This document shows, piece by piece, positions 1,292 through 33,829 of a DNA stretch of 44,923 nt. The notes beneath the pieces were generated by a model. That model was not told the origin of the DNA, made no database searches, and saw only the letters and a program-made list of their open reading frames with translations. Made by a program: the position numbers and the translations under genes. This stretch comes from a virus. How positions within the stretch are numbered: the stretch's first letter is position 1; every line of letters starts with the position of its first letter. Where the stretch lies: IMG/VR virus record IMGVR_UViG_3300018080_000270, positions 1 through 44,923 of that record; one strand, 5' to 3'.

Positions 1292-1555
1292 TTAATTACC
1301 CTCTTTTTTTGGAAAGGCTTTTTCTTCAATTAATTTTCTTTTATGTTCAGTATTTAATTCATCAAGAAATTCTTCAATATCTTTTATACAAGAAAGGGAA
1401 AATAGAGTATTAGTTTCAGGGAAAAAACAATATTGTCTCCATTGAGAATACCATTTAATTTCTCCTAAGTAAACATTAGTTTCTTTATTACTTACATTAT
1501 ATACTTGTGTTTTACTTTTCTTTTCAACTTCAAAATATTTTAACCATTTAGACAT
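1292..1555 (-). CDS. Conserved-looking phage protein with WxxQWRQYCFFP motif
   Basis: 87 aa. The pattern YLGEIKWYSQWRQYCFFP is of a type I associate with small phage proteins of unknown function; this recognition is from memory and has not been searched. The start overlaps the polymerase stop by one base. Confidence 0.65.
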   Translation of the reverse strand: MSKWLKYFEVEKKSKTQVYNVSNKETNVYLGEIKWYSQWRQYCFFPETNTLFSLSCIKDIEEFLDELNTEHKRKLIEEKAFPKKEGN

Positions 1556-4500
1556 TATAAAACCTCCTTAACATCCCAATTTAAACTTTCGAAAATTGTA
1601 TCTAGCTTCATCAAGATGTTTCGTTGAATAATCAATGACCAATCGACCAGCCCTCTGTGAACATGGTCAAATACTTCATCACTAAACGCTATAACATCTT
1701 TAGGTTTATCTTTTCTATGTAATACACTTACTTCTTTACTATCGAATTCTTTATTGTATTGTTTTTTAGCGTATTCTAATCCTTCTTTTCTAGTTAAATT
1801 TTTATCTAAAACTATATCTTGATAACTAATTCCATCTTTTTCGAAATCATTTTTAATCTTAATAATGGTTTTTGTATCGCTCTCTTCTTGAGGTTTAACA
1901 TAAATATAATAAAAACTCTCTCCAATTTTAACCGAAAATTCTGGAGTATTCTCCAAAGCTCTAACAAAAATAGGTTTATTTTTATAGTTTACAGGGTCTT
2001 TAGCTAAACGACAAGGAAAGGCAATATCCTGTAAAGGAGCATTTTTTATATCTTTTTGCTGTAGTTTAATCCATTTGAAAATCTCTTCTTTAGGAGTATC
2101 ATTATGTATTTTATTAAATAATTCTTCTTGAAATTTAACCATAAATTTAGTGCTATTTCCAGACCAATAAGCTTTTCCGTTTCTCATAACAAAAATAGTA
2201 TGATAAGGTTCAATATCTACACAATAAATTTTTCCTTTATATTTTTTAGTTTTTATTTTTTTTGGATTTATTTTGAAATATTTATTGGAACTTTCTGAAA
2301 TTTGATAATGAATTCCTCCTATATTTGCCCAATGATTTACAATCCATTTTTTCTTAAATTCTATTTTTCTTTCTAATATTGTAGCCGATTTGCCTATTTT
2401 GGTTATCAATTCTTGCAAATCTAATGCCATTTGTTTACTTGAAGTAGAAAAAATTCGTTGTTTAGTTTTACCTTTATACCATCCATCTCCTAAACAATAA
2501 GTATAAAGAAAATGTTCAATAGTATGAGGAAATGCTTTTTTAATATAATTAGGTATAATTTTATTTTTAGCATTATTTCCATATTTTTTTAATTCATAAG
2601 CAATTAATTTATTTTTTATTTGAAATCCTCTTTCGTTTTCATAAAAATAAACAGATAAGTCTTTTAAAAGTTCTTTTATTAGTTTCTTTTTTTGGCTATT
2701 TTTATTAGACTGACCAATAAAAATTTCATATATTTTTTTCTTTTCATTAATATAAACACATCCTTCGCTTAAATACCAGCCCATAAATTGAAACCAAGCA
2801 TCTATAGGAAATTGTATTTCTTTATATTGTCTATTTACTATTCCAGACAAAATAAAATAATTTCCTAAATGTTGTCCATTCCATTCATAATATTTTTGAG
2901 AAGTAAAATTAGTATTAGAATTTTTAATTTCAGTTATCGTTTTAAATTTATTTCTATCTGTATGTGGAGACTGATAAGTTCTTTGTAAAAATTTATGATT
3001 CGGAGTTACACAGAAATCTATAGATTGGTCAGAATAAGTAAACATTTTTCCTTCGTAATCTTCTTTAATTATATTTTTAATAGGATAATAATGGGATATA
3101 TTTGTTTCGGGATTCATACTTAAAACTTTATCTTCATAAGTTAAATTTTTAAAATATTTCCAACCCGAATCTGTTAAAATCAAAGTTTTTCCGTCAAAAC
3201 AATCTTTACGCTTACTTTCAACCCCTTTAGTTTCTCGTTCACCATTATCTTTGATAGCATCGTATCGGCATTTTGTAAGGAGGATAAGAGATTTAAAATA
3301 ACCCTGATACTCAAATTCTACATTAACTTTATCTTTACCAAATTTTTTACCCCATTCTTGAACGATTTCATTTAATAAAGAAGAAATATCTTCCGTATTA
3401 TTGTTTATCATAATACCATCTGTATCAACATAAACTACTTCATAACCTTTTTCTTTTAGTTTATCTATTGTATATTTTAAAACATCTCTTGCTAAAAAAG
3501 TAGTAGCACTTGCTACATTTTTGTTATAAAGCCTAAAGAAACGATTACCAAATACTCCATAAGCGGAATTAACCACACTTTTAATAGCATCATACATTTT
3601 TTTTGTATCTTTATATTCTTCGCTTTCATGAGATAAAGTTGACAACTTTTTCTTGATGTCAACTTTTAAGGTTGTCAACTTGTTGACAACAGTAGGTAAT
3701 AAAGCTTTAGAATTTTGTTTAAAATAAGTTTCGTTGATTTTAATAGGAGTATAATCTTTTTCTGCTGTTAAAGGAGCAGTTAATAAAATATTCGCAGGGT
3801 CAAGACAAAAATCGCTTATCATAGTAGGATAACAACTTGAAAGGTCATACACCCCTACGTCTTTTAAATGACCTTCTCGAAATACCTCTCTAAATGCTCC
3901 TTCATAATCTTCTTTTTCTAATAAAGTTCCTCTTTCTTCAGCAGGTTTCATCGGAAGAATTATGTTTTGATTTTTTGCTTCTTGTAAAAGTAACATATCC
4001 AGCACTCGGCTATTAAATAACATGTCCTCCCATTCTACTTTACTTAATCTTCTAATCGCATCGAAATAATCTATTAAATGAAATTTTCTTTCTAATTTTT
4101 CTAATCGTCTTACGTCATTTTGATTCTTTTTTATAAGGTCATCAGAAATTTGATTAAAATCTACTTTTTTATTTGCTTCATCATTAAGATGTTTTTGAGC
4201 AATGTAATCGAGGGTGTATTGTTTTTCTCTATTTAATGTAATTTTTTTAAACCAACTATTTCCTGTAATAAATACTTTACCATTTCTTCGGCATACTACA
4301 GTTCCGTTATCTGTAGAAATACACCATACTTTACCTTTATATTGAATTTTTTCGTATTTAGCTAATTTAGGATAATATCGTAATCTCTGCTTTGACCCGA
4401 TTATAATATAATTATTATCTTTATTAGATTTGCTTAAATTAGTATTATATCCGCATTTAAAAGCTAATTCTTGAAATTGGTTAGCTCTTTCGTTATTTTC

Positions 4501-5841
4501 TTCATAATAAATAAACCCATTTTTACGAATATGTCCATCTCCTTTAATCATTTCTTTTAAAAGAATATTTAATTGATTTTTATCTGCATTTAAAATATAT
4601 CGAGGTAATAATTTATTTATTCCTATAATATCAAAATAATTTTTGATTTGACTTTTTTTATTAGATAAATAAAATTGAGTTTGAGTGTATTTTTTATATT
4701 CATAATTATATTTTTTATATTTTATATTTAAATATTTTAGAATATTTTCAATTTCTTCTATATATTGGTTACATTGTGTAATTTTAATTCCTTCAAATTT
4801 GCCATTACACATCATTATATTACCTTCAGTAATTATCCATGCTAATAATTTTAATTCTTCATTTGATAATTTACATGTTATACCATCGAAACCATTTTTA
4901 CTATAGTTAAATAAATAGCATTGAGAGGGTAAGTTATCTGGTATGTCAAATTTAATATTTAAAGGTTTCCCTTTTCCATCCGCAGTTTGATATAATTCTC
5001 TATGATTAGGAGTAATTAATCTATCTGTTCTTTTATTTTTTAAATATCTCATTTTACCATTAAAATTATAGATATATTTTTCTTTGATAGGCATTATTTC
5101 TAATTGTTGTGAATTAATATTATATGTAATAGCATTTTTTATATCTTTTATTTCTTTATATTTTTTCCAACCATCTTCTGTTAATATTTCAGTATTTTGG
5201 TCAACACATAAATAATCGATAATACTTATTCCTGCTGGATAAAAAACTTGACCATCTCCATATCTAGTTTGTCCAATTATACTTAATTCTTTGGCAAAAT
5301 CAGGATACCGATTATATAAATAATTATAATCAAATTGCACATTCCAAGAAAGCCAAAGGTCGAATTTTTCTTCTTTCATGAAGCAAATAAAAGCATTAAT
5401 CATCTCATATTCTGAAGCGTATTTATCAAGTCTAAAAGTCATTAAAGTTTTTCTTTCGGAATTATAAACAGTAATTAAAGAAATAGGAAATTTAGCTTCT
5501 TCTACATTAGGCATTTCATTTGCTAGAACTTCAATATCTATAAAAGCGTATTTAATCATTGTTTTTTCTATTTTATCTACTTTATCTATTAAATACCTTT
5601 TAACAAAAAGAATATCAGCTTCGCAAGCATTTAAAGTTCTTTGTTTAGGAACATCACAAGGATTAGATACTAAAACTTTACGCAAACTTTCGCCTGTATA
5701 TGCTTTAAATTGCCCTACAGGGTCTTTCTCATAAAAATAAGGAAAGAAATCCTTAATCTCATGAGTAATAAGCACTCCGTCTATATCTCTCTCGAATAAA
5801 TAAAGAGTGCGAAAATTATTTGCTATATTTACTAAACGCAT
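1555..5841 (-). CDS. Family B DNA polymerase interrupted by two inteins
   Basis: Replicative DNA polymerase with proofreading. Exo I is FIDIE (100-104), Exo II is WNVQFDYNYL (166-175) and Exo III is YTLDYIA (542-548). The polymerase motifs are A (DLSSCYPTMI, 666-675), B (KSVVNSAYG, 754-762) and C (YVDTDG, 804-809). Two in-frame inserts at residues 212-528 and 881-1229 have intein ends and homing-endonuclease motifs. Removing them leaves a 762-aa enzyme, a normal size for phage PolB. The first insert lies between Exo II and Exo III; the second lies just after the conserved KGVESKRKD segment beyond motif C. The gene sits in the replication operon with RecA, RuvC and primase. The polymerase should be inactive until both inteins splice. 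Confidence 0.93.
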   Translation of the reverse strand: MRLVNIANNFRTLYLFERDIDGVLITHEIKDFFPYFYEKDPVGQFKAYTGESLRKVLVSNPCDVPKQRTLNACEADILFVKRYLIDKVDKIEKTMIKYAFIDIEVLANEMPNVEEAKFPISLITVYNSERKTLMTFRLDKYASEYEMINAFICFMKEEKFDLWLSWNVQFDYNYLYNRYPDFAKELSIIGQTRYGDGQVFYPAGISIIDYLCVDQNTEILTEDGWKKYKEIKDIKNAITYNINSQQLEIMPIKEKYIYNFNGKMRYLKNKRTDRLITPNHRELYQTADGKGKPLNIKFDIPDNLPSQCYLFNYSKNGFDGITCKLSNEELKLLAWIITEGNIMMCNGKFEGIKITQCNQYIEEIENILKYLNIKYKKYNYEYKKYTQTQFYLSNKKSQIKNYFDIIGINKLLPRYILNADKNQLNILLKEMIKGDGHIRKNGFIYYEENNERANQFQELAFKCGYNTNLSKSNKDNNYIIIGSKQRLRYYPKLAKYEKIQYKGKVWCISTDNGTVVCRRNGKVFITGNSWFKKITLNREKQYTLDYIAQKHLNDEANKKVDFNQISDDLIKKNQNDVRRLEKLERKFHLIDYFDAIRRLSKVEWEDMLFNSRVLDMLLLQEAKNQNIILPMKPAEERGTLLEKEDYEGAFREVFREGHLKDVGVYDLSSCYPTMISDFCLDPANILLTAPLTAEKDYTPIKINETYFKQNSKALLPTVVNKLTTLKVDIKKKLSTLSHESEEYKDTKKMYDAIKSVVNSAYGVFGNRFFRLYNKNVASATTFLARDVLKYTIDKLKEKGYEVVYVDTDGIMINNNTEDISSLLNEIVQEWGKKFGKDKVNVEFEYQGYFKSLILLTKCRYDAIKDNGERETKGVESKRKDCFDGKTLILTDSGWKYFKNLTYEDKVLSMNPETNISHYYPIKNIIKEDYEGKMFTYSDQSIDFCVTPNHKFLQRTYQSPHTDRNKFKTITEIKNSNTNFTSQKYYEWNGQHLGNYFILSGIVNRQYKEIQFPIDAWFQFMGWYLSEGCVYINEKKKIYEIFIGQSNKNSQKKKLIKELLKDLSVYFYENERGFQIKNKLIAYELKKYGNNAKNKIIPNYIKKAFPHTIEHFLYTYCLGDGWYKGKTKQRIFSTSSKQMALDLQELITKIGKSATILERKIEFKKKWIVNHWANIGGIHYQISESSNKYFKINPKKIKTKKYKGKIYCVDIEPYHTIFVMRNGKAYWSGNSTKFMVKFQEELFNKIHNDTPKEEIFKWIKLQQKDIKNAPLQDIAFPCRLAKDPVNYKNKPIFVRALENTPEFSVKIGESFYYIYVKPQEESDTKTIIKIKNDFEKDGISYQDIVLDKNLTRKEGLEYAKKQYNKEFDSKEVSVLHRKDKPKDVIAFSDEVFDHVHRGLVDWSLIIQRNILMKLDTIFESLNWDVKEVL
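2155..3201 (-). mobile_element. Intein 2 of PolB with LAGLIDADG endonuclease
   Basis: Residues 881-1229 (349 aa). It begins CFDGKTLILTDSGW (block A), has TPNH (946-949, block B), endonuclease motifs FMGWYLSEG (1019-1027) and LYTYCLGDGW (1112-1121), block F IYCVDIEPYHTIFV (1205-1218), and ends YWSGN followed by Ser. It also has Gly-Asn instead of His-Asn. It sits after catalytic motif C, inside the segment ESKRKD / STKFM of the host protein. Confidence 0.88.
4258..5208 (-). mobile_element. Intein 1 of PolB with LAGLIDADG endonuclease
   Basis: Residues 212-528 (317 aa). It begins with Cys (CVDQNTEILTEDGW, block A), has TPNH (277-280, block B), two LAGLIDADG-like motifs (LLAWIITEG at 332-340 and LLKEMIKGDG at 427-436), and ends VFITGN followed by Ser in the host protein. 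The usual penultimate His is Gly here. The insertion point is in the exonuclease domain, between Exo II and Exo III. Confidence 0.88.
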
Positions 5842-7651: not shown

Positions 7652-7821
7652 TATTTTTGCTCCTGTATTAAATCACAATCTTTACAAACAACTCTTTTTT
7701 CGGATTTTGTTCCGTCTTTATAATAACCAGAAGAAGTAGCATATTGCGTTCTAACTTCATTTTCTTTTAATTCTTTACCACAACAATAACACTCATATTT
7801 TTTTACTTCATTCGTTTCCAT
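7651..7821 (-). CDS. Small zinc-binding protein, 56 aa
   Basis: Has Cys at 11, 13 and 14 (ECYCCGKEL) and C-K-D-C at 46-49, a likely zinc ribbon. It overlaps the RecA-like gene by 19 bp. No specific role visible. Confidence 0.6.
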   Translation of the reverse strand: METNEVKKYECYCCGKELKENEVRTQYATSSGYYKDGTKSEKRVVCKDCDLIQEQK

Positions 7822-8771
7822 ATTTCCCTCGTTATTTCTTTTAAATCTTTTTCTTCTAAAATTTCCATAAATTTTTCTTTTCCAACTGCTTTTTTATCTT
7901 TATATTCATAAGTCTTTCCAGAAAAGTTTATAACTCCGTATTTAATTCCAGCAAATACTATTGATTTTTTATTATCTATTTTACCATCATAATAAAAATC
8001 TAATACTGCTGTTCTATGAGGTTTACCTTTTTTATTTTTAATAGTATGGAGATTAATTTCTACACCTATTCTTTCTTTATTATCTCCTGAACCTATATCC
8101 ATAGGTTTGCCAGCTCTAAATTCTACTCTTGTATGATAAAGATGTTTCAAAGCTCTACCGCCTCCTGTTGTATAAGGATTCCCATACATAGTTCCTACTT
8201 TTTCTCTTAATTGATTAATAAAAATTATAGCTGTTTGATGTTTAGCAATTGTTTGATTTATTTTTCGGCAAATAAGTGCATTGACCCTTGCCTGAAGTGC
8301 CATAGTAGGTTGATTAGTATCTCTATCTATTTCTTCTTCTGGAATTAACATTGAAATACTATCTACTACTATTAAATCAGTATCTTCTTGAATTAACTTA
8401 ACAAATAAATCTCCAGCTTCTTCTAATGAACCTGCTTTTAATACTAACAAATTATCATTATCAACACCATTTTGAGCACCCCATTGTGGGTCATAACTAT
8501 TCTCAGCATCTATCCATACACATGTTTTGCCTTGTTCCTGAAAAGATTTAATAACATGCAAAGCAAAAGTTGATTTACCAGAACTTTCTGCTCCAAAGAA
8601 TTCGATAAAATGCCCTCCATTACCAATTTTAATTCCTCCTAAAACATAATCAAGAGCAAAAACTCCGCTATAAATAACTTCTGTATCTTTAATATCAGAA
8701 GCTTTTTGAATAGCATAGTCTTTTTCTAATTGATTAAGAAGTTTATTTAGCTTTTCATTCTTTTTCGCCAT
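7803..8771 (-). CDS. recA: RecA-like recombinase
   Basis: 322 aa. ATP-dependent strand-exchange protein for recombination-dependent replication and repair. Walker A is GAESSGKST (60-68), the catalytic Glu lies in WIDAEN (E90), Walker B is LIVVDSIS (133-140), and the DNA-binding loop 2 region reads VGTMYGNPYTTGGGRALKH (192-210). The core matches bacterial RecA closely; the protein is slightly shorter than E. coli RecA (about 350 aa), with a reduced C-terminus. Start supported by GGAG. Located with RuvC and primase. Confidence 0.93.
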   Translation of the reverse strand: MAKKNEKLNKLLNQLEKDYAIQKASDIKDTEVIYSGVFALDYVLGGIKIGNGGHFIEFFGAESSGKSTFALHVIKSFQEQGKTCVWIDAENSYDPQWGAQNGVDNDNLLVLKAGSLEEAGDLFVKLIQEDTDLIVVDSISMLIPEEEIDRDTNQPTMALQARVNALICRKINQTIAKHQTAIIFINQLREKVGTMYGNPYTTGGGRALKHLYHTRVEFRAGKPMDIGSGDNKERIGVEINLHTIKNKKGKPHRTAVLDFYYDGKIDNKKSIVFAGIKYGVINFSGKTYEYKDKKAVGKEKFMEILEEKDLKEITREIWKRMK

Positions 8772-9394: not shown

Positions 9395-9967
9395 TTATTC
9401 CTCCGTTAATCCTGCAAGACCCAAAACACAAGCATCTCCTAAATCTTGGTCTTTATTCTTTTTTAAATGAATTCCTAATGCCTTATTTATATAATTTACT
9501 ATTTCTTTCTTTAAATAATCGCCTTTAATATTTTTATTTGATTTTTCAAAATTTATTAATCCCCTCGCTTTTGTAGGAAGTATAAAGTATTGTTTACGAG
9601 ATAATCCTCGAAATCTGTCATAGACAAATGCTGAATGGCGAGCCAATGCTTTTAAAGTTCTAACATTTTGACCCATCCAACAATCTTCAATAACATTGAA
9701 ATCTATTTTATAAGTCTGACTAATTTTTTTAGCAAAAATATCAAGTTGGTCAAGAAATAAATCAAGAGCATCTTTATCATTTACTTTTTGAGGAATTTTT
9801 ATTTTTTCTAATATATCTAAGATTAAAAAATCATTAGAAGTTCTAATTACAGCTATACCTGTGCTTCTCATACTTACATCCCAACCTATAGCTATTTTAT
9901 TTCTAGCAAGTTTTACTTCTAGTAAGGCTTCGACGGTCTCTATTTTAATTTTCTTTAGGTTTTTCAT
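9395..9967 (-). CDS. RuvC-like Holliday junction resolvase
   Basis: 190 aa, RNase H-like fold. Strand 1 carries IAIGWDVSMRSTGIAVI (D30), strand 4 has VIEDCWMGQN (E94), and the C-terminal helix has DQDLGDACVLGLAG (D175, D178). This is the D-E-D-D set of RuvC resolvases. It should resolve branched DNA made by the RecA-like recombinase. No RuvA is visible; a RuvB-like ATPase is encoded far away at 31.4-32.5 kb. Confidence 0.82.
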   Translation of the reverse strand: MKNLKKIKIETVEALLEVKLARNKIAIGWDVSMRSTGIAVIRTSNDFLILDILEKIKIPQKVNDKDALDLFLDQLDIFAKKISQTYKIDFNVIEDCWMGQNVRTLKALARHSAFVYDRFRGLSRKQYFILPTKARGLINFEKSNKNIKGDYLKKEIVNYINKALGIHLKKNKDQDLGDACVLGLAGLTEE

Positions 9968-14940: not shown

Positions 14941-15391
14941 TTTGTTTCCTCCAGATTTCAAATAATTGTAATCCTTTCCCCCGATAAAAATTCCCTACTA
15001 TTAAAATTCCTAAATGAGCTAATTTAATTAAAGTTTGATTGCTAACAAGCATTTCCCGAAATCCGTATTCAGAAGCATCGCCAATAGTCGTAGCCGAAAC
15101 AATAACATCAATATGAGCCCAATGAATAGCAGTGAGGCACATCGGACAGGGCTCAGTTGACGAATAAATATAGCATCCTTCTAAATTAATTGTTTTGAGT
15201 TTTTTACAAGCTTTTTTAATAGCATTAATTTCGGCATGAGCTGTAGGGTCGTTATCTTGTAATACTGTATTATGAGCAGAAGCTATTACTTTCCTATTTT
15301 TAACTATTATAGCTCCAAAAGGAGATTGACCTTTTTTAATCCCTCTTTTTGCTTCTTTAAATGCTAAATTTATAAATTTATCACTTTTCAT
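14924..15391 (-). CDS. Guanine deaminase-like nucleobase deaminase
   Basis: 155 aa, cytidine-deaminase fold. Zinc site HAEINAI (H52, E54) and STEPCPMC (C82, C85). The residues after it (DASEYGFREM) and the C-terminal LFEIWRKQNGKTY match the bacterial guanine deaminase GuaD pattern (DAAEAGF, ...AWR...Y) better than tRNA adenosine deaminase, and the length agrees with GuaD. It would convert guanine to xanthine. It neighbours transporter genes, which suggests purine or pterin metabolism. tRNA deaminase activity cannot be excluded. Confidence 0.7.
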   Translation of the reverse strand: MKSDKFINLAFKEAKRGIKKGQSPFGAIIVKNRKVIASAHNTVLQDNDPTAHAEINAIKKACKKLKTINLEGCYIYSSTEPCPMCLTAIHWAHIDVIVSATTIGDASEYGFREMLVSNQTLIKLAHLGILIVGNFYRGKGLQLFEIWRKQNGKTY

Positions 15392-15654
15392 TTTAATCTC
15401 CTATATTTTATTACTAAAAAATTAATAATTAATAAATTAATGAACGGAAAGACATGGGCGATAACTACTGACCATTGTTTTAATAAAATATTTCCTGTTA
15501 TAAAAACAACATAAGCAATACAGCAAATTATAAAAAATAATAAGCTAATCCCTTCTGTTCTCTTGGTGCGAAGTAGATGCCAGATTTGAGGCAAGGTTTC
15601 CAGTGTCCAAAGAACGCCAGCTAAAATAATAAGTAAATTAGCAAATTTATGCAT
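15388..15654 (-). CDS. SemiSWEET/PQ-loop sugar transporter-like protein
   Basis: 88 aa, three membrane helices (about 7-24, 37-55, 61-82). The first helix ends in LPQIWHLLRTKRTEGIS, the classic PQ-loop motif. Size and layout match bacterial SemiSWEETs, which act as dimers to move small sugars across the inner membrane. Overlaps the deaminase start by 4 bp (ATGA) and follows the BT1-like transporter by one base pair, so all three form a tight unit. Confidence 0.75.
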   Translation of the reverse strand: MHKFANLLIILAGVLWTLETLPQIWHLLRTKRTEGISLLFFIICCIAYVVFITGNILLKQWSVVIAHVFPFINLLIINFLVIKYRRLK

Positions 15655-16827
15655 TTATTCCTCTTTAAAATATTTAATTACTGGAAAACATAAAAAAGTA
15701 GTTATACTGCTTATTGCTATTAAAGGCAAGAAACCTACTTTATCAAATAACCACCCACCTAATATCCCTGCTCCAGCTCCTGTTAAATTACTTATAGAAG
15801 CCACGATAGCATAAGTTGTGCCTTCGTGTTTTGTTCTAGAAGCTAATTTCATAAATAAAGTCATAAGAGGAATATATAATATCATAGCTATTATCCCTCC
15901 TATTATAGTATCTAAAATAGCAAACCATTTAATATAATAAAACCAAATTAACCAGGTTGAAATTGCTCCTATAATAATACTAGCATAGAGCACTTTTTTA
16001 ATTGGTAATGCCTTAAAGAATTTATTGTAAAGAATTGTTCCAATTACTGCACTGGCACTTCCTATGCTTCCTAATAAACCTAAAAATGTTGTTGAAATTT
16101 CGTGTTGTTTCATGTAAAACAAAAAAGCTATCCCTAGTCCTGGACTAAACATGCCTAAAAATAAAAATAAAGTTAAAACTCTTAATTGTCGGTCTTTAAT
16201 ATATTCTTTTATAGGATTTAGAATTCCTTGTATTATATTTATTTTATTTTTAATTTGAATTTTAATATCATCCATAAAAATAACAGCACTTAGTATAACT
16301 AATTGCACAAAACACATAATTTTAAATATCAAAAAATATCCAAATTTATCAATTAAAAGTCCACCTAATATCCCTGTTATTACTGCTCCCAAAGCTCGAT
16401 AACCTAAAGAAATAATTTGATAATGTTTAGCATCTGAATCTTTTTTACTATGTTCTGCTATTTTAGCATCTACAACTACATCACGTAAACAATAACCTGT
16501 TGTATAAAATATCCCACACAATACTAATAGCCAAAAAGTAGGTTGTTTTAAAATACATAATAAAAACCATCCAAATAAACTAATTAAACAAGATAAAATA
16601 ACATAAGGTTTTCGCCTCATTCCAAAAATAGGATAATTATCGCTTATCATACCAAAAACAATTTTAACATACCAGGCTATTCCTGCTATAGCACTTATAC
16701 TTGCTATTTGTGCTACTGTAAAACCTAAAGAATGGTAATACAAAGGAATAGCAAGCCCTACTAATCCAAGTGCTCCTTGAAAAAAATAAGTTAAAGCAGT
16801 AATTATATCTAATTTATTTATTTTCAT
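15655..16827 (-). CDS. MFS transporter of the BT1 (folate/pteridine) type
   Basis: 390 aa with about 11-12 membrane helices. The loop after helix 2 reads SDNYPIFGMRRKPY (62-75) and helix 4-5 has RDVVVDA (115-121). Both are marks of the BT1 folate-biopterin transporter family within the major facilitator superfamily. It probably sits in the host inner membrane; substrate (folate, pterin or other) is an inference. The next gene downstream is a SemiSWEET-like protein and then a guanine-deaminase-like enzyme. Transporters are rare in phage genomes. Confidence 0.72.
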   Translation of the reverse strand: MKINKLDIITALTYFFQGALGLVGLAIPLYYHSLGFTVAQIASISAIAGIAWYVKIVFGMISDNYPIFGMRRKPYVILSCLISLFGWFLLCILKQPTFWLLVLCGIFYTTGYCLRDVVVDAKIAEHSKKDSDAKHYQIISLGYRALGAVITGILGGLLIDKFGYFLIFKIMCFVQLVILSAVIFMDDIKIQIKNKINIIQGILNPIKEYIKDRQLRVLTLFLFLGMFSPGLGIAFLFYMKQHEISTTFLGLLGSIGSASAVIGTILYNKFFKALPIKKVLYASIIIGAISTWLIWFYYIKWFAILDTIIGGIIAMILYIPLMTLFMKLASRTKHEGTTYAIVASISNLTGAGAGILGGWLFDKVGFLPLIAISSITTFLCFPVIKYFKEE

Positions 16828-28359: not shown

Positions 28360-28375
28360 ATTTAGTTCACTCTCT
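28351..28375. terminator. Hairpin between convergent frames
   Basis: A perfect 10-bp stem AGAGAGTGAA / TTCACTCTCT with a 5-nt loop, downstream of the PC4-like gene on the minus strand and of the 49-aa frame on the plus strand. No T-run follows on either side, so it may be an RNA-stability or weak terminator element. It resembles the stem at 695-717. Confidence 0.45.
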
Positions 28376-28377
28376 TT

Positions 28378-28415
28378 AGTATTAATAGTATGAGTTTACG
28401 AATACTATTAATACT
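28378..28415. repeat. 14-bp inverted repeat
   Basis: AGTATTAATAGTAT and its exact reverse complement, separated by 10 nt, directly beside the previous hairpin and before the end of the PC4-like gene. Could be a protein-binding dyad or second hairpin. Confidence 0.5.
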
Positions 28416-28477
28416 AAATACTTATAAATTAAGTATAAATATTAAATTACAATATACTTATATTATATATTAAGGTA

Positions 28478-29490: not shown

Positions 29491-30312
29491 TTAATTTCTT
29501 TCTTCTTTTGATTTTTTAATTAATTCGTTATACTTTTTCTTTATATCTTCAATACTATATCTCATATAAATATCGGTCATCTGTAAACTTGAATGACCCA
29601 TTATATCCTTTATCATAAAACTATCTCCACCTATACCCTTAAACCACACCGCAAACGAGCTTCTAAATAAATGAGGGTGTAAATGTATGTCTTTGAAATA
29701 AGGGTCTAATTGCCTACAATAATATCTTATAGTGTCTTTTTTAATGTTAAAGGCATTAGTTATTTCTGTTTCAGTTTCAAAATAACATTCTAAAGCATTT
29801 TTTAAATTCAAAGAAAGAGGCACTATCCTCTCTTTACTTCCTTTACCTTTAATTCTTATAATATTATTTTTGAAATCAATATCTTCCCTTTTTAAATTTA
29901 TAACCTCTTGCCTTCTTATTCCTGTATAAAATAATAATGTAAATACTGCATTTACTTTTTCAGGTTTTTCAAAAACTTGAGGGATAATAGGTAATAACTC
30001 GTCTATAAATCTTTTTTCCGTCAAAACTTTTTTTACTTTATTATATTTATTTAATTTAACCATTTTAGGTATTTCTATTTTTTTATCTTTAAATCTAAAA
30101 TAAGATTTAATAACATCTCTATAAAGCGTAATAGAGGCAGGAGAATATTTTTCTTTGGCTTTAAATAGATAATCTATAATATTCTTTTCATTAAATTCTT
30201 TGGTTTTAAATTCTTTTAAAATAGTGGAAAGAATATTGTCATAAGTTTTTATAGTTTCAGGGCTTAACCCCTGTTTTTTTAACCAAGTAATATAATTATT
30301 TAACAACTTCAT
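29491..30312 (-). CDS. Tyrosine recombinase (XerC/D-like integrase)
   Basis: 273 aa. N-terminal SAM-like DNA-binding domain (1-90), then the catalytic domain with TGIRRQEV (R133), GKGSKERIVPL (K in the beta-hairpin), HPHLFRSSF (H214, R217), MGHSSLQMT (H240) and YMRY (Y249 nucleophile). All catalytic residues are present. It could integrate the phage, resolve dimers or invert DNA; no attachment site was identified. Good AAAGGAAA site. Confidence 0.9.
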   Translation of the reverse strand: MKLLNNYITWLKKQGLSPETIKTYDNILSTILKEFKTKEFNEKNIIDYLFKAKEKYSPASITLYRDVIKSYFRFKDKKIEIPKMVKLNKYNKVKKVLTEKRFIDELLPIIPQVFEKPEKVNAVFTLLFYTGIRRQEVINLKREDIDFKNNIIRIKGKGSKERIVPLSLNLKNALECYFETETEITNAFNIKKDTIRYYCRQLDPYFKDIHLHPHLFRSSFAVWFKGIGGDSFMIKDIMGHSSLQMTDIYMRYSIEDIKKKYNELIKKSKEERN

Positions 30313-30794
30313 TAAATTTCCTTTCCGTTAATTAAACTGTGTAACCCTTTATTATGAGCTTCATTAACAATAGCTAACATTATATCGAAAATAATAGGGT
30401 GAGTTATAATATAACTACTGTCTATTTTAATATAAGGTTTACCTTTGATATTATTAATATATTTGCTCATTTCTTTATTTCTACGATTATACTCCGCTTT
30501 TTTTAAATGTCGTTTAAAAAGTTTTAATTCCTTTTCTTTTGCTTCTTCATAAGAAAGCATAAAAATCTTTTTTAAATCTCTTTGAGAAGCCAATAAACAC
30601 CCTGCCAATTTAAAAAGAGAGCTTATTTGTAATTCTCTAATAAATTTTTCGTTTTCTTTTTTTAGTTCTTCTATTCTTTTTTTAATAACTTGTTTTTTAT
30701 AAAGAGGCATTTGATTATGTTTTTTTAAATAATTTTCCAAATCCACCACGCTATAATTTTCTAACATATGCTTTGAAAGTTTATATCTTTTCAT
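30312..30794 (-). CDS. Charged helical protein, 160 aa
   Basis: Start at MKRYKLSKHMLEN with a GGAGG site. Helical and Lys/Glu-rich (YKKQVIKKRIEELKKENEKF), with a C-terminal segment PYIKIDSSYIITHPIIFD. No family recognised. One base overlap with the recombinase start, so possibly linked in function. Confidence 0.6.
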   Translation of the reverse strand: MKRYKLSKHMLENYSVVDLENYLKKHNQMPLYKKQVIKKRIEELKKENEKFIRELQISSLFKLAGCLLASQRDLKKIFMLSYEEAKEKELKLFKRHLKKAEYNRRNKEMSKYINNIKGKPYIKIDSSYIITHPIIFDIMLAIVNEAHNKGLHSLINGKEI

Positions 30795-31440
30795 TTTTAA
30801 CCTCCTTATTTGTATATTTATGTAAATTTTCATACCACCATAAAGGTTGTAAATTTTTATAATTAAAACATTTGAATTGTTCTGATTTTTTCGTTAAATC
30901 AAATTGACAACAAGGTATAATATGGTCTATTACCCATTTATTTAATCCCCTACCATAATTTTTCCAAGTCATTCCTCTTTTAAATCGTCTTTGTAAATAT
31001 GTTTTAAAATATTTTACAGAACAACCTAATAAATCTATTGTTGAATTTGATTTTTTTCTTAATATTTGATTTACTCTCCTTCTTAAATTATCTACAATTT
31101 TACAATGTAAATTAGTTTTTCTTCGCCATAATGTATATTTTGTTTTATTCATGGCTTTTCCATGTTTATAATTGGGATTTTTCTTTCCTTTATATTTATT
31201 TTTCAATGCTTTGCTTATTTTTTGTCTTGTTTTTAAATTATGATGTTTACCATACATAGGATTATTTTTACCTTTTAATTTGTGATTATTATAATTTGGA
31301 TTTCCTTTCCCTTTATAAGTTTTGTAATGACATTTAGCACATCTTTTATGTTTATACGCTAATGTGCCTTTTAATTTTTTATGACATATAATACAATAAT
31401 ATTCTTTTAAAGTCCTACCGTCTTTTTTATAATGTCTCAT
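30781..31440 (-). CDS. HNH homing endonuclease with zinc knuckle and NUMOD3 repeats
   Basis: 219 aa. Zinc knuckle C16/C19/C34/C37, three NUMOD3-like repeats (GKGNPNY, GKNNPMYGKHH, GKKNPNYKHGK), then an HNH domain with KWVIDHIIPCCQFDL (D172, H173), FNYKNLQPLWW (N196) and ENLHKY. It cuts DNA and spreads itself; inserted after the RuvB-like gene. The N-terminal half is related to the PD-(D/E)XK enzyme at 9972-10655. Confidence 0.88.
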   Translation of the reverse strand: MRHYKKDGRTLKEYYCIICHKKLKGTLAYKHKRCAKCHYKTYKGKGNPNYNNHKLKGKNNPMYGKHHNLKTRQKISKALKNKYKGKKNPNYKHGKAMNKTKYTLWRRKTNLHCKIVDNLRRRVNQILRKKSNSTIDLLGCSVKYFKTYLQRRFKRGMTWKNYGRGLNKWVIDHIIPCCQFDLTKKSEQFKCFNYKNLQPLWWYENLHKYTNKEVKNEKI

Positions 31441-32548
31441 TTTTTATTTCCTTTAAAAATCGCTTTCCTTTTTCTGATATAATTCTGCTTGGCACTCTTA
31501 AAATATATCCTTCTTCGCATAAGAAAGGTTCTATTTCTCTTGTATATTCTAATTCCGTTAATTTACATCTTTGAGAGAGAGCATTTGCACCTATCGGTCT
31601 TGTTAATTCAGAAAGCACCTGTAATACCCTAATATCTAATTCTGTTAACCCCGATTTAATAATTTTCCAATTTTTTAACACTTTATTTATATCTCCTATT
31701 ACAACCAATTCTTCAGCAAGCGAAATGGCTATTCTTGGGGTATATTTACAATTATGAGCAATAATACCAATATTTTCTTCGGATATATTTTCTTCGGGAA
31801 ATAATTGTTTAATATATTGTCGGATTATTTCTTTTAATTCATCAATAGTATAGCGTTCAAATTTTAAATGGATTTGTATTCTGTCCATAGTATCGGGATT
31901 ATATCGCAATAATGTAGATTTTTGAATACTTGCACCGCAAAAAATAAATGGTTTAATTTTTTTTCCTGATATTTCAAATTGTTCTATAATAGGGTTAAGC
32001 ATCTTGACAACTTTTCTATCGCAACTATCCATTTCATCACAGAAAAATAATACATTTTTTTCTGGACAAGTATTTATTTCATTGATTATATTCGTCAATT
32101 CGTCAGGTTCTATTTGTTTTCCTACTCTTGTAATAAGCCGAGCATTTAACATTTTTGCTAAAATATTTATAAATGTCGTTTTGCCCACTCCTTGCCTACC
32201 ATCTACGAATATATGTCCTCTTAATCCTTTATTGATTTTTTGTATAGCAATTTTTGCCCTCTCTTTCGCTTCACTTTGTCCTATGAAAGTATTAAAATCA
32301 TAAGGGCGAAATTCAAATTTCTTTATTGTTTCTCCTTCGTATTCTTTAATTTTGTTAACATCTATTTGCCCTTCTTTAATTTCTACTTTTAAAGGTTTTG
32401 TTTCCATATTTTCTTCTTCAATTTCTTCTTCTCCGTCGGTAATAGAAGATATTGATATTCTTCCCTCTCCTAAAGAAATTTGCATTTCTCTTTTCGCTTT
32501 AATAATGGCTAATGCAACTACTAATATTATAAATAAAATTATAATCAT
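31427..32548 (-). CDS. Membrane-anchored RuvB-like AAA+ ATPase
   Basis: 373 aa from the ATG with AAAGGAGA upstream. Residues 1-18 are a membrane helix (MIIILFIILVVALAII), followed by an acidic linker to about 75. The ATPase starts RPYDFNTFIGQSEAKER; Walker A is GRQGVGKTT (117-125), Walker B LFFCDEMD (167-174) and sensor 2 TPRIA. The C-terminal winged helix (about 300-366) has LTELDIRVLQVL and GEGYI-type features close to RuvB. Bacterial RuvB is soluble, so the anchor is unusual. No RuvA partner is seen. It may move or tether branched DNA at the membrane. Confidence 0.78.
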   Translation of the reverse strand: MIIILFIILVVALAIIKAKREMQISLGEGRISISSITDGEEEIEEENMETKPLKVEIKEGQIDVNKIKEYEGETIKKFEFRPYDFNTFIGQSEAKERAKIAIQKINKGLRGHIFVDGRQGVGKTTFINILAKMLNARLITRVGKQIEPDELTNIINEINTCPEKNVLFFCDEMDSCDRKVVKMLNPIIEQFEISGKKIKPFIFCGASIQKSTLLRYNPDTMDRIQIHLKFERYTIDELKEIIRQYIKQLFPEENISEENIGIIAHNCKYTPRIAISLAEELVVIGDINKVLKNWKIIKSGLTELDIRVLQVLSELTRPIGANALSQRCKLTELEYTREIEPFLCEEGYILRVPSRIISEKGKRFLKEIKNETL

Positions 32549-32550
32549 AT

Positions 32551-32982
32551 TTATTTTGTCTCCTTTATCCATATATAAGGTAAATCATCAGGTTCTTTCC
32601 AACCAAATTTATCATAATATTTTTTATCTTTTCTTAATAAATTACTTTTATGAGAAGAATGTAATTTTTTATTTCCTAACCAAGAAGGATATACTATTTC
32701 TTTATCGTGATATTGTAAATTCATTTCAGTAATAAACTTTTCCCACATTTGTCCTTTATATCCTCTTGCTCTCCATTCTTGACAGATATACCACCCATAT
32801 AATAGTAAACAATGTTCATATCCTTTCCACATTTTAACAATAGGGTGATTTTTCCACCCATAATTTTCTTGTGTCAATGCTTGATATATTTGCCACGCTT
32901 CAACTCTTTGCTTGCCTAATCGTTTATAATCAAGACATAAAGCGGTTTTTCTAAAATCTTTATAAGGTAAAAAGGTTTGCAT
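32551..32982 (-). CDS. Pyrimidine-dimer glycosylase-like protein (MSMEG_6728 type)
   Basis: 143 aa. MQTFLPYKDFRKTALCLDYKR, LGKQRVEAWQI, NHPIVKMWKGYE and YICQEWRARGY follow the family typified by MSMEG_6728, distantly related to T4 endonuclease V. A role in repair or base excision is inferred from the family only. Overlaps a 44-aa basic gene upstream. Confidence 0.7.
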   Translation of the reverse strand: MQTFLPYKDFRKTALCLDYKRLGKQRVEAWQIYQALTQENYGWKNHPIVKMWKGYEHCLLLYGWYICQEWRARGYKGQMWEKFITEMNLQYHDKEIVYPSWLGNKKLHSSHKSNLLRKDKKYYDKFGWKEPDDLPYIWIKETK

Positions 32983-33094: not shown

Positions 33095-33279
33095 TTTTCT
33101 CCTTTTAATGTTTTAAATCTTCTCCAAAACCAACCGCTAAATCTTATTAAATAAACTTCAGTAACAAGAGGATTATCTTTTAATTGTTTATTATATAACT
33201 CTTTCGCTTCTTTTATAGATATATTTTGTTTTAATCCCCATAATTTTCCGTTCATTTTATATCTTAATTGCACTTTCAT
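33091..33279 (-). CDS. Hypothetical protein, 62 aa
   Basis: Beta-helix-beta pattern (MKVQLRYKMNGKLWGLK, SIKEAKELYNKQ, VTEVYLIRF). No family recognised. Shares a base with the GGDEF gene stop. Confidence 0.6.
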   Translation of the reverse strand: MKVQLRYKMNGKLWGLKQNISIKEAKELYNKQLKDNPLVTEVYLIRFSGWFWRRFKTLKGEK

Positions 33280-33761
33280 TATCTTTTCCTTTTCTTCTCT
33301 TTATACATAAGTAAATCCACTTTTTTTAAACACCCTTTACCTAATTTACATATACCAATACTTGCTTTTATTTTATTTTTAATTAGGGTATTTTTAACTT
33401 TTTCTTTTAATAAATCTGGTCTATCGCTATGACTAAAAATTATAAAAAATTCATCGCCCTCATAACCCCTATAAACATTCTCGTAATCTCGTATAGAATT
33501 ACATAAAACCCTTGCCACTCGTTTTAATAACTTATCCCCTACCAAATGCCCTTTAGTGTCGTTTATCTCCTTAAATCCGTCTAAATCAACCATAGCAATA
33601 AAAAAAGGTATCTTAAACCTATTTTGTAAGGAAAGATACCTCTTTATATCGGTTAAGAGTTTACGCCTGTTAAAAAGTTTTGTTAAACTATCCACAAGCG
33701 ATAACTTTTTATATCTCTTAACTTGTTGTTCTAATTGTTTTATTCGTGTTTTATAATTCAT
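33279..33761 (-). CDS. GGDEF-domain protein (diguanylate-cyclase-like)
   Basis: 160 aa. A short N-terminal coiled coil, then SLVDSLTKLFNRRKLL (21-36), AMVDLDGFKEINDTKGHLVGD (metal D59/D61; substrate N67, D68), signature YEGDEFF (E101-F105; EGDEF instead of GGDEF) and KASIGICK. EGDEF deviates at the first Gly, so activity may be reduced or changed. The upstream inhibitory-site pattern RxxD reads RDYE. It has no sensor domain. A signalling role acting on the host c-di-GMP pool is inferred. Confidence 0.85.
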   Translation of the reverse strand: MNYKTRIKQLEQQVKRYKKLSLVDSLTKLFNRRKLLTDIKRYLSLQNRFKIPFFIAMVDLDGFKEINDTKGHLVGDKLLKRVARVLCNSIRDYENVYRGYEGDEFFIIFSHSDRPDLLKEKVKNTLIKNKIKASIGICKLGKGCLKKVDLLMYKEKKRKR

Positions 33762-33779
33762 TTTTATCACTTCCTTATC

Positions 33780-33816
33780 GGAAGAAAAGCCGAAATTATA
33801 ATATGCCTTTTTCGGC
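33780..33816 (-). terminator. Possible hairpin terminator/attenuator before the GGDEF gene
   Basis: On the minus strand GCCGAAA, a 14-nt loop, TTTCGGC, then TTTTCTTCC. It sits between the stop at 33830 and the GGDEF start at 33761. Confidence 0.4.
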
Positions 33817-33829
33817 AAGGCAATTTAAT

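Follow-up and report, generated by a model that had tools for sequence, protein, structure and literature searches.

What does a RuvB-type motor do once the hairpin that binds RuvA is gone? Most work on RuvB has treated it as the partner of RuvA, and the question is raised by a gene for a RuvB-like AAA+ ATPase on a viral contig of 44,923 nucleotides (nt) (IMG/VR record IMGVR_UViG_3300018080_000270, positions 1 to 44,923), which was analyzed at its full length and is referred to below as the window. We found that the RuvA-binding hairpin has been lost throughout a rare family of phage RuvB-like motors, most of which have a predicted membrane anchor; this loss, like the lack of a RuvA gene in the eight contigs searched, is a new finding. 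The reading we favor, with a probability of about 45%, is a RuvA-independent, membrane-tethered RuvB-type motor on double-stranded DNA (dsDNA) that works with a co-encoded recombinase.

A divergent, phage-specific RuvB homologue

The window protein matched two RuvB domains above their Pfam gathering scores, RuvB_N over residues 81 to 193 (E = 1.7e-12, 47.8 bits) and RuvB_C over residues 299 to 366 (E = 8.6e-9, 35.7 bits). A sequence search of the PDB returned Thermotoga maritima RuvB (E = 4.5e-24), and the best 42 PDB structures found by Foldseek were all RuvB, led by 1j7k (E = 2.3e-21; TM-score of 0.83 over the target); the first non-RuvB match was the origin recognition complex, at E = 3.5e-10. 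The preliminary description of this DNA, made from the letters alone, had stated that the protein closely resembles RuvB. The RuvB-type AAA+ core and winged helix bear this out, but “closely” was too strong: identity to three bacterial RuvB proteins is only 22 to 26%, and both NCBIfam RuvB equivalog cutoffs were missed (116 versus 282 bits and 111 versus 299 bits). The protein is a divergent, phage-specific RuvB homologue and not a RuvB equivalog. Identification as a clamp loader (PHROG 5846/168) was rejected, since the PHROG matches were limited to the ATPase, the RuvB score of 116 bits compared with 35 bits for DnaX, and the folds were all RuvB. There was no sign of an FtsK/HerA-type motor domain either: the Pfam matches included no FtsK model, and the top folds were all RuvB.

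The RuvB-like gene (Table 1) is real. Its ATG at position 32548 lies 2 nt past the stop codon of the preceding gene, which is pyrimidine-dimer-glycosylase-like, and follows a Shine-Dalgarno sequence, AAAGGAG, by 11 nt. An alternative in-frame ATG at 32572 would add eight residues, lacks a Shine-Dalgarno sequence, and overlaps the upstream gene.

To sample the family, 2.9 million viral contigs were scanned with sequence patterns, which gave 11 relatives; three further scans with other patterns added no new contig. The family comprises 12 contigs including the window and 11 distinct sequences, one relative (L002) being nearly identical to the window, and its other members are 43 to 74% identical to the window's protein. 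It belongs to the tailed phages, an assignment that rests on a tape-measure protein in the relative G002; no TerL was found with PHROG 2 in the eight contigs searched. Two pattern scans of 84,980 prokaryotic species genomes found no true relative, and the sole pattern match (L062) is a dnaX-like gene, judged by its sequence. For this gene, host contamination is rejected on three grounds: the 12 phage contigs, the tape measure of G002, and the lack of a prokaryotic relative. Two RuvB-matching records from the phage collection (H11, MN180249.1, and H26, CAKLQF020000007.1) were opened and rejected as relatives, as they carry ruvA-ruvB pairs amid host-type genes; both are apparently chromosomal sequence. 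In a phylogenetic tree, the family was monophyletic with respect to RuvB.

The RuvA-binding hairpin is lost throughout the family

In cellular RuvB, the pre-sensor-1 beta-hairpin is where domain III of RuvA binds and stimulates the motor (PMC9477746; PMC10272136). The stretch between a conserved glutamate and the PF preceding sensor 1 measures 11 residues in every one of the 11 family members, compared with 23 in the RuvB proteins of E. coli, Wolbachia, and Acinetobacter, making the hairpin 12 residues shorter than that of cellular RuvB across the whole family. Because this hairpin is gone family-wide, the motor probably has no classical branch-migration partner in any RuvA. In line with the preliminary description, which had reported no RuvA, RuvA_N was not found in the eight contigs, although these may be fragments; the same search gave matches in 10 of 14 control genomes.

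The catalytic center has been kept. Walker A K123, Walker B D171 and E172, sensor-2 R272, and the trans-acting arginine R223, which aligns with R174 of E. coli RuvB (the second arginine of the RDRFG motif), are invariant in the 11 members. The first and last of the three DNA-contact arginines in the winged helix are also retained; the truncated L032 sequence does not include this part of the domain. Overall, the window protein shares with bacterial RuvB, the branch-migration motor of RuvAB, the large and small AAA+ subdomains, the catalytic residues, the RuvB_C winged helix, and the fold. It differs in its low identity (22 to 28%), its shorter hairpin, its added membrane helix and linker, the loss of one DNA-contact arginine, the lack of a detected RuvA partner, and the linkage of its gene to a tyrosine recombinase.

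A hydrophobic N-terminus in most family members

Residues 1 to 16 of the window protein carry no charge (MIIILFIILVVALAII), the best 19-residue Kyte-Doolittle mean is 2.98, and an acidic linker follows (DGEEEIEEENMETKP). An AlphaFold2 model, built from only seven sequences, placed residues 2 to 24 in one helix, left the linker disordered, and gave the core mostly good confidence. Among the 11 distinct sequences, eight have an N-terminal 19-residue segment with a mean hydropathy of at least 2.07, and the N-terminus of L003 is borderline (1.25). The helix varies in sequence across the family and keeps its character, with 15 to 22 uncharged residues from the start codon followed by lysine or arginine. 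As a control, a comparable hydrophobic N-terminal region was present in 7 of the 52 other window proteins. By the positive-inside rule, the motor would lie in the cytosol, a location and topology predicted from hydropathy and charge.

A true start downstream of the hydrophobic segment would remove this helix. Such a start is ruled out by the Shine-Dalgarno sequence before the ATG at 32548 and by the same layout in the relatives, in which the hydrophobic N-terminus begins at each open reading frame's own start, mostly with a strong Shine-Dalgarno sequence. The membrane helix and acidic linker of the preliminary description thus hold, and the helix-RuvB fusion recurs in other phages. That description also knew of no membrane-tethered RuvB, and our literature searches found no report of a membrane-bound or phage-encoded RuvB, which is weak evidence of absence.

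The helix bears on an earlier proposal that the protein tethers replicating phage genomes to the membrane. In this reading, the winged helix would hold DNA and the ATPase would serve in regulation rather than translocation. A membrane helix and a DNA-binding winged helix do lie in the same chain, and phi29 replication is anchored by the membrane proteins p1 and p16.7 (PMC4974454). These phi29 proteins recruit the replication of phage DNA to the membrane of the host, but they are not AAA+ motors, and the idea of membrane anchorage is all that they have in common with the window protein. We consider a pure tether improbable: the invariant catalytic AAA+ residues point to a working motor, and two family members have no helix.

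The motor gene is linked to an Xer-like recombinase

In all 12 contigs, the RuvB-like gene is followed downstream, on its own strand, by a tyrosine recombinase gene, from which one to three genes separate it. These recombinases are short (about 260 to 290 residues in the ten aligned). In each of the four scanned, the best NCBIfam model was XerA, ahead of XerC and XerD, matching the whole chain with E values of 4e-46 to 8e-55 and falling under the 220-bit equivalog cutoff. A small middle protein is the conserved third member of the module. Leave-one-out hidden Markov models (HMMs) detected it at its slot in 9 of 11 loci, whereas BLAST failed to group it, and it gave no RuvA-like or other family match above threshold.

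Recombinase linkage in every contig would also fit an AAA+ remodeler or regulator that assembles, activates, or dismantles the recombinase synapse, a RuvB fold without long-range translocation. MuB and TnsC are AAA+ regulators of transposases. The overall fold and C-terminal domain of the window protein are, however, those of the RuvB translocase, and no RuvB-derived regulator of a recombinase is known to us, making this the most remote of the alternatives.

RecA and RuvC-like proteins and the case for branch migration

RecA was found in all eight contigs and a RuvC-like resolvase in five (the window and four others), the two lying close together in the genomes. The statement that no RuvC is nearby was correct for the gene neighborhood; the same contig does encode a RuvC-like resolvase, 22 kb from the RuvB-like gene and near recA. 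Jumbo phages likewise encode RuvC-like resolvases for processing Holliday junctions (PMC7824862); here, a RuvB-like motor and a RuvC-like resolvase occur within one phage lineage. A second possible Holliday junction resolvase lies at 329 to 604 of the window (PHROG 2002, E = 3.8e-15).

These proteins suggest the main rival, a branch-migration motor that, together with phage RecA and the RuvC-like resolvase, would drive Holliday junctions when the phage replicates by recombination at the membrane; RuvA would be replaced by the middle protein or by some other phage protein. Driving Holliday junctions is the role otherwise known for RuvB, and a conserved middle protein accompanies the motor. Helicase activity independent of RuvA has been reported for some RuvB proteins (PMC3364216). 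Against this, linkage ties the motor gene to the tyrosine recombinase rather than to recA or ruvC, the RuvA-binding hairpin is gone in 11 of 11 members, and the middle protein has no RuvA-like match above threshold. We judge this rival unlikely, while placing it ahead of the replication tether and, last, the recombinase remodeler.

A proposed RuvA-independent motor working with the recombinase

The anatomy on which the favored reading builds (homology, ATPase residues, hairpin loss, hydrophobic helix, and linkage) is well supported, and from it we infer what the RuvB-like motor may do. A ring-forming AAA+ motor would track dsDNA via its winged helix, its hexamer and translocation being extrapolated from RuvB, and one N-terminal helix would hold it to the cytoplasmic membrane on the inner side. 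Because the hairpin for RuvA recruitment and stimulation is lost, the motor would have to load in another way, with the help of its membrane tether, of the small middle protein, or of the co-encoded recombinase. Most likely, it would pump or remodel phage DNA at the membrane, in the form of dimers, concatemers, or junctions made by RecA and the Xer-like recombinase. The partnership of motor and recombinase is suggested by their linkage, and the processing of dimers or concatemers by analogy.

That analogy is with FtsK/SpoIIIE and XerCD, in which a membrane-anchored ring-shaped dsDNA motor with a winged-helix domain is paired with an Xer-type recombinase; the window motor resembles them in its predicted membrane helix and its Xer-like neighbor. 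FtsK/SpoIIIE differ in having an FtsK/HerA-type motor rather than a RuvB-type AAA+ motor, four membrane helices rather than one, and steering of the type provided by FtsK-orienting polar sequences (KOPS), for which no counterpart is shown in the window motor. That the phage has rebuilt an FtsK-Xer-like machine, with a RuvA-free, membrane-anchored RuvB ring driving an Xer-type recombinase and the small third protein as loader, is a doubtful proposition.

Several observations weigh against a tethered motor partnered with the recombinase. Since other genes of the region are syntenic too, linkage alone is no proof of shared function, and no conserved repeat resembling a recombination site was found beside the recombinase. 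The middle one of the three winged-helix DNA arginines is lost (RxPSR in the family and RVPSR in the window, versus RTPRGR). Finally, L008 and L032 have no hydrophobic helix, and the membrane anchor is therefore not indispensable; a search for an amphipathic substitute helix in these two proteins gave hydrophobic moments no better than those of shuffled sequences. Loss of their helix, rather than its original absence, is only the likelier reading, because the tree has weak inner branches and a saturated branch leading to RuvB.

Other features of the locus and the contigs

Table 1. Coordinates of the motor gene, its parts, and associated genes in the window
Feature	Position	Strand	Basis or remark
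RuvB-like AAA+ ATPase with predicted membrane anchor, 373 amino acids	31427..32548	-	Pfam, NCBIfam, PDB sequence, Foldseek
Shine-Dalgarno AAAGGAG serving the ATG at 32548	32560..32566	-	sequence
N-terminal hydrophobic helix, residues 1-24 (1-16 uncharged, then KAKRE)	32477..32548	-	hydropathy; AlphaFold2 helix 2-24
Linker, residues 25-79, partly acidic; family-conserved KVxIK...DxxKIxEYxGE before the core	32312..32476	-	alignments; low pLDDT (predicted local distance difference test)
RuvB-type AAA+ ATPase and lid, residues 80-298	31655..32311	-	Pfam RuvB_N; Foldseek
Walker A GRQGVGKT, residues 117-124 (K123 invariant)	32177..32200	-	alignments
Shortened pre-sensor-1 hairpin EQFEISGKKIKPF, residues 189-201	31946..31984	-	alignment with cellular RuvB
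RuvB_C winged helix, residues 299-366; DNA-contact motif RVPSR (R351, R355)	31451..31654	-	Pfam, alignments
Protein with NUMOD3, probably a homing endonuclease that inserted into the operon	30781..31440	-	profile matches
Small, fast-evolving middle protein, conserved third module member	30312..30833	-	leave-one-out HMM
Xer-like tyrosine recombinase, 273 amino acids	29491..30312	-	on the strand of the motor gene in 12/12 contigs
RuvC-like Holliday junction resolvase (PHROG 159), which may act as a downstream partner	9395..9967	-	profile match
RecA	7803..8771	-	RecA in 8/8 contigs

The slot of the NUMOD3 protein is occupied by other genes or by none in the relatives, and homing endonucleases have invaded the gap between motor and recombinase in several genomes. 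The L004 recombinase (L004:4329-6131) apparently contains one intein, judged from its sequence. At 28375-28418, 1.1 kb past the window's recombinase, two perfect 17-bp inverted arms flank a 10-nt center, adjoining an 11-bp hairpin. This repeat is the strongest dyad in that region, above all 40 shuffles, and was not found in the relatives except the near-identical L002; comparable places in L008 and L029 resemble terminators.

Just upstream of the RuvB-like gene, six contigs encode a minimal GGDEF (diguanylate cyclase) protein, as in the window (33279-33818, signature YEGDEF), L003:7833-8315, and L007:9102-9584 (both SGDEF). In L030, the RuvB-like gene and the middle protein are separated by an HD_5 protein (L030:3082-3744), which is HD-GYP-like and resembles cyclic di-GMP phosphodiesterases.

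The phage also encodes a family B DNA polymerase, a prim-pol, and a 5'-3' exonuclease. Matches to LAGLIDADG and splicing domains indicate that the polymerase (1555-5841) apparently carries two inteins. Judged from sequence only, the window further encodes a small membrane protein resembling SemiSWEET (15388-15654) and a major facilitator superfamily-like transporter (15655-16827).

Implications for RuvB-type motors

A family that keeps the motor, lacks the RuvA dock, and carries an anchor would reveal what a bare RuvB ring does. Such a family would also show how a RuvB motor is recruited free of RuvA and whether it serves site-specific recombination or genome segregation.
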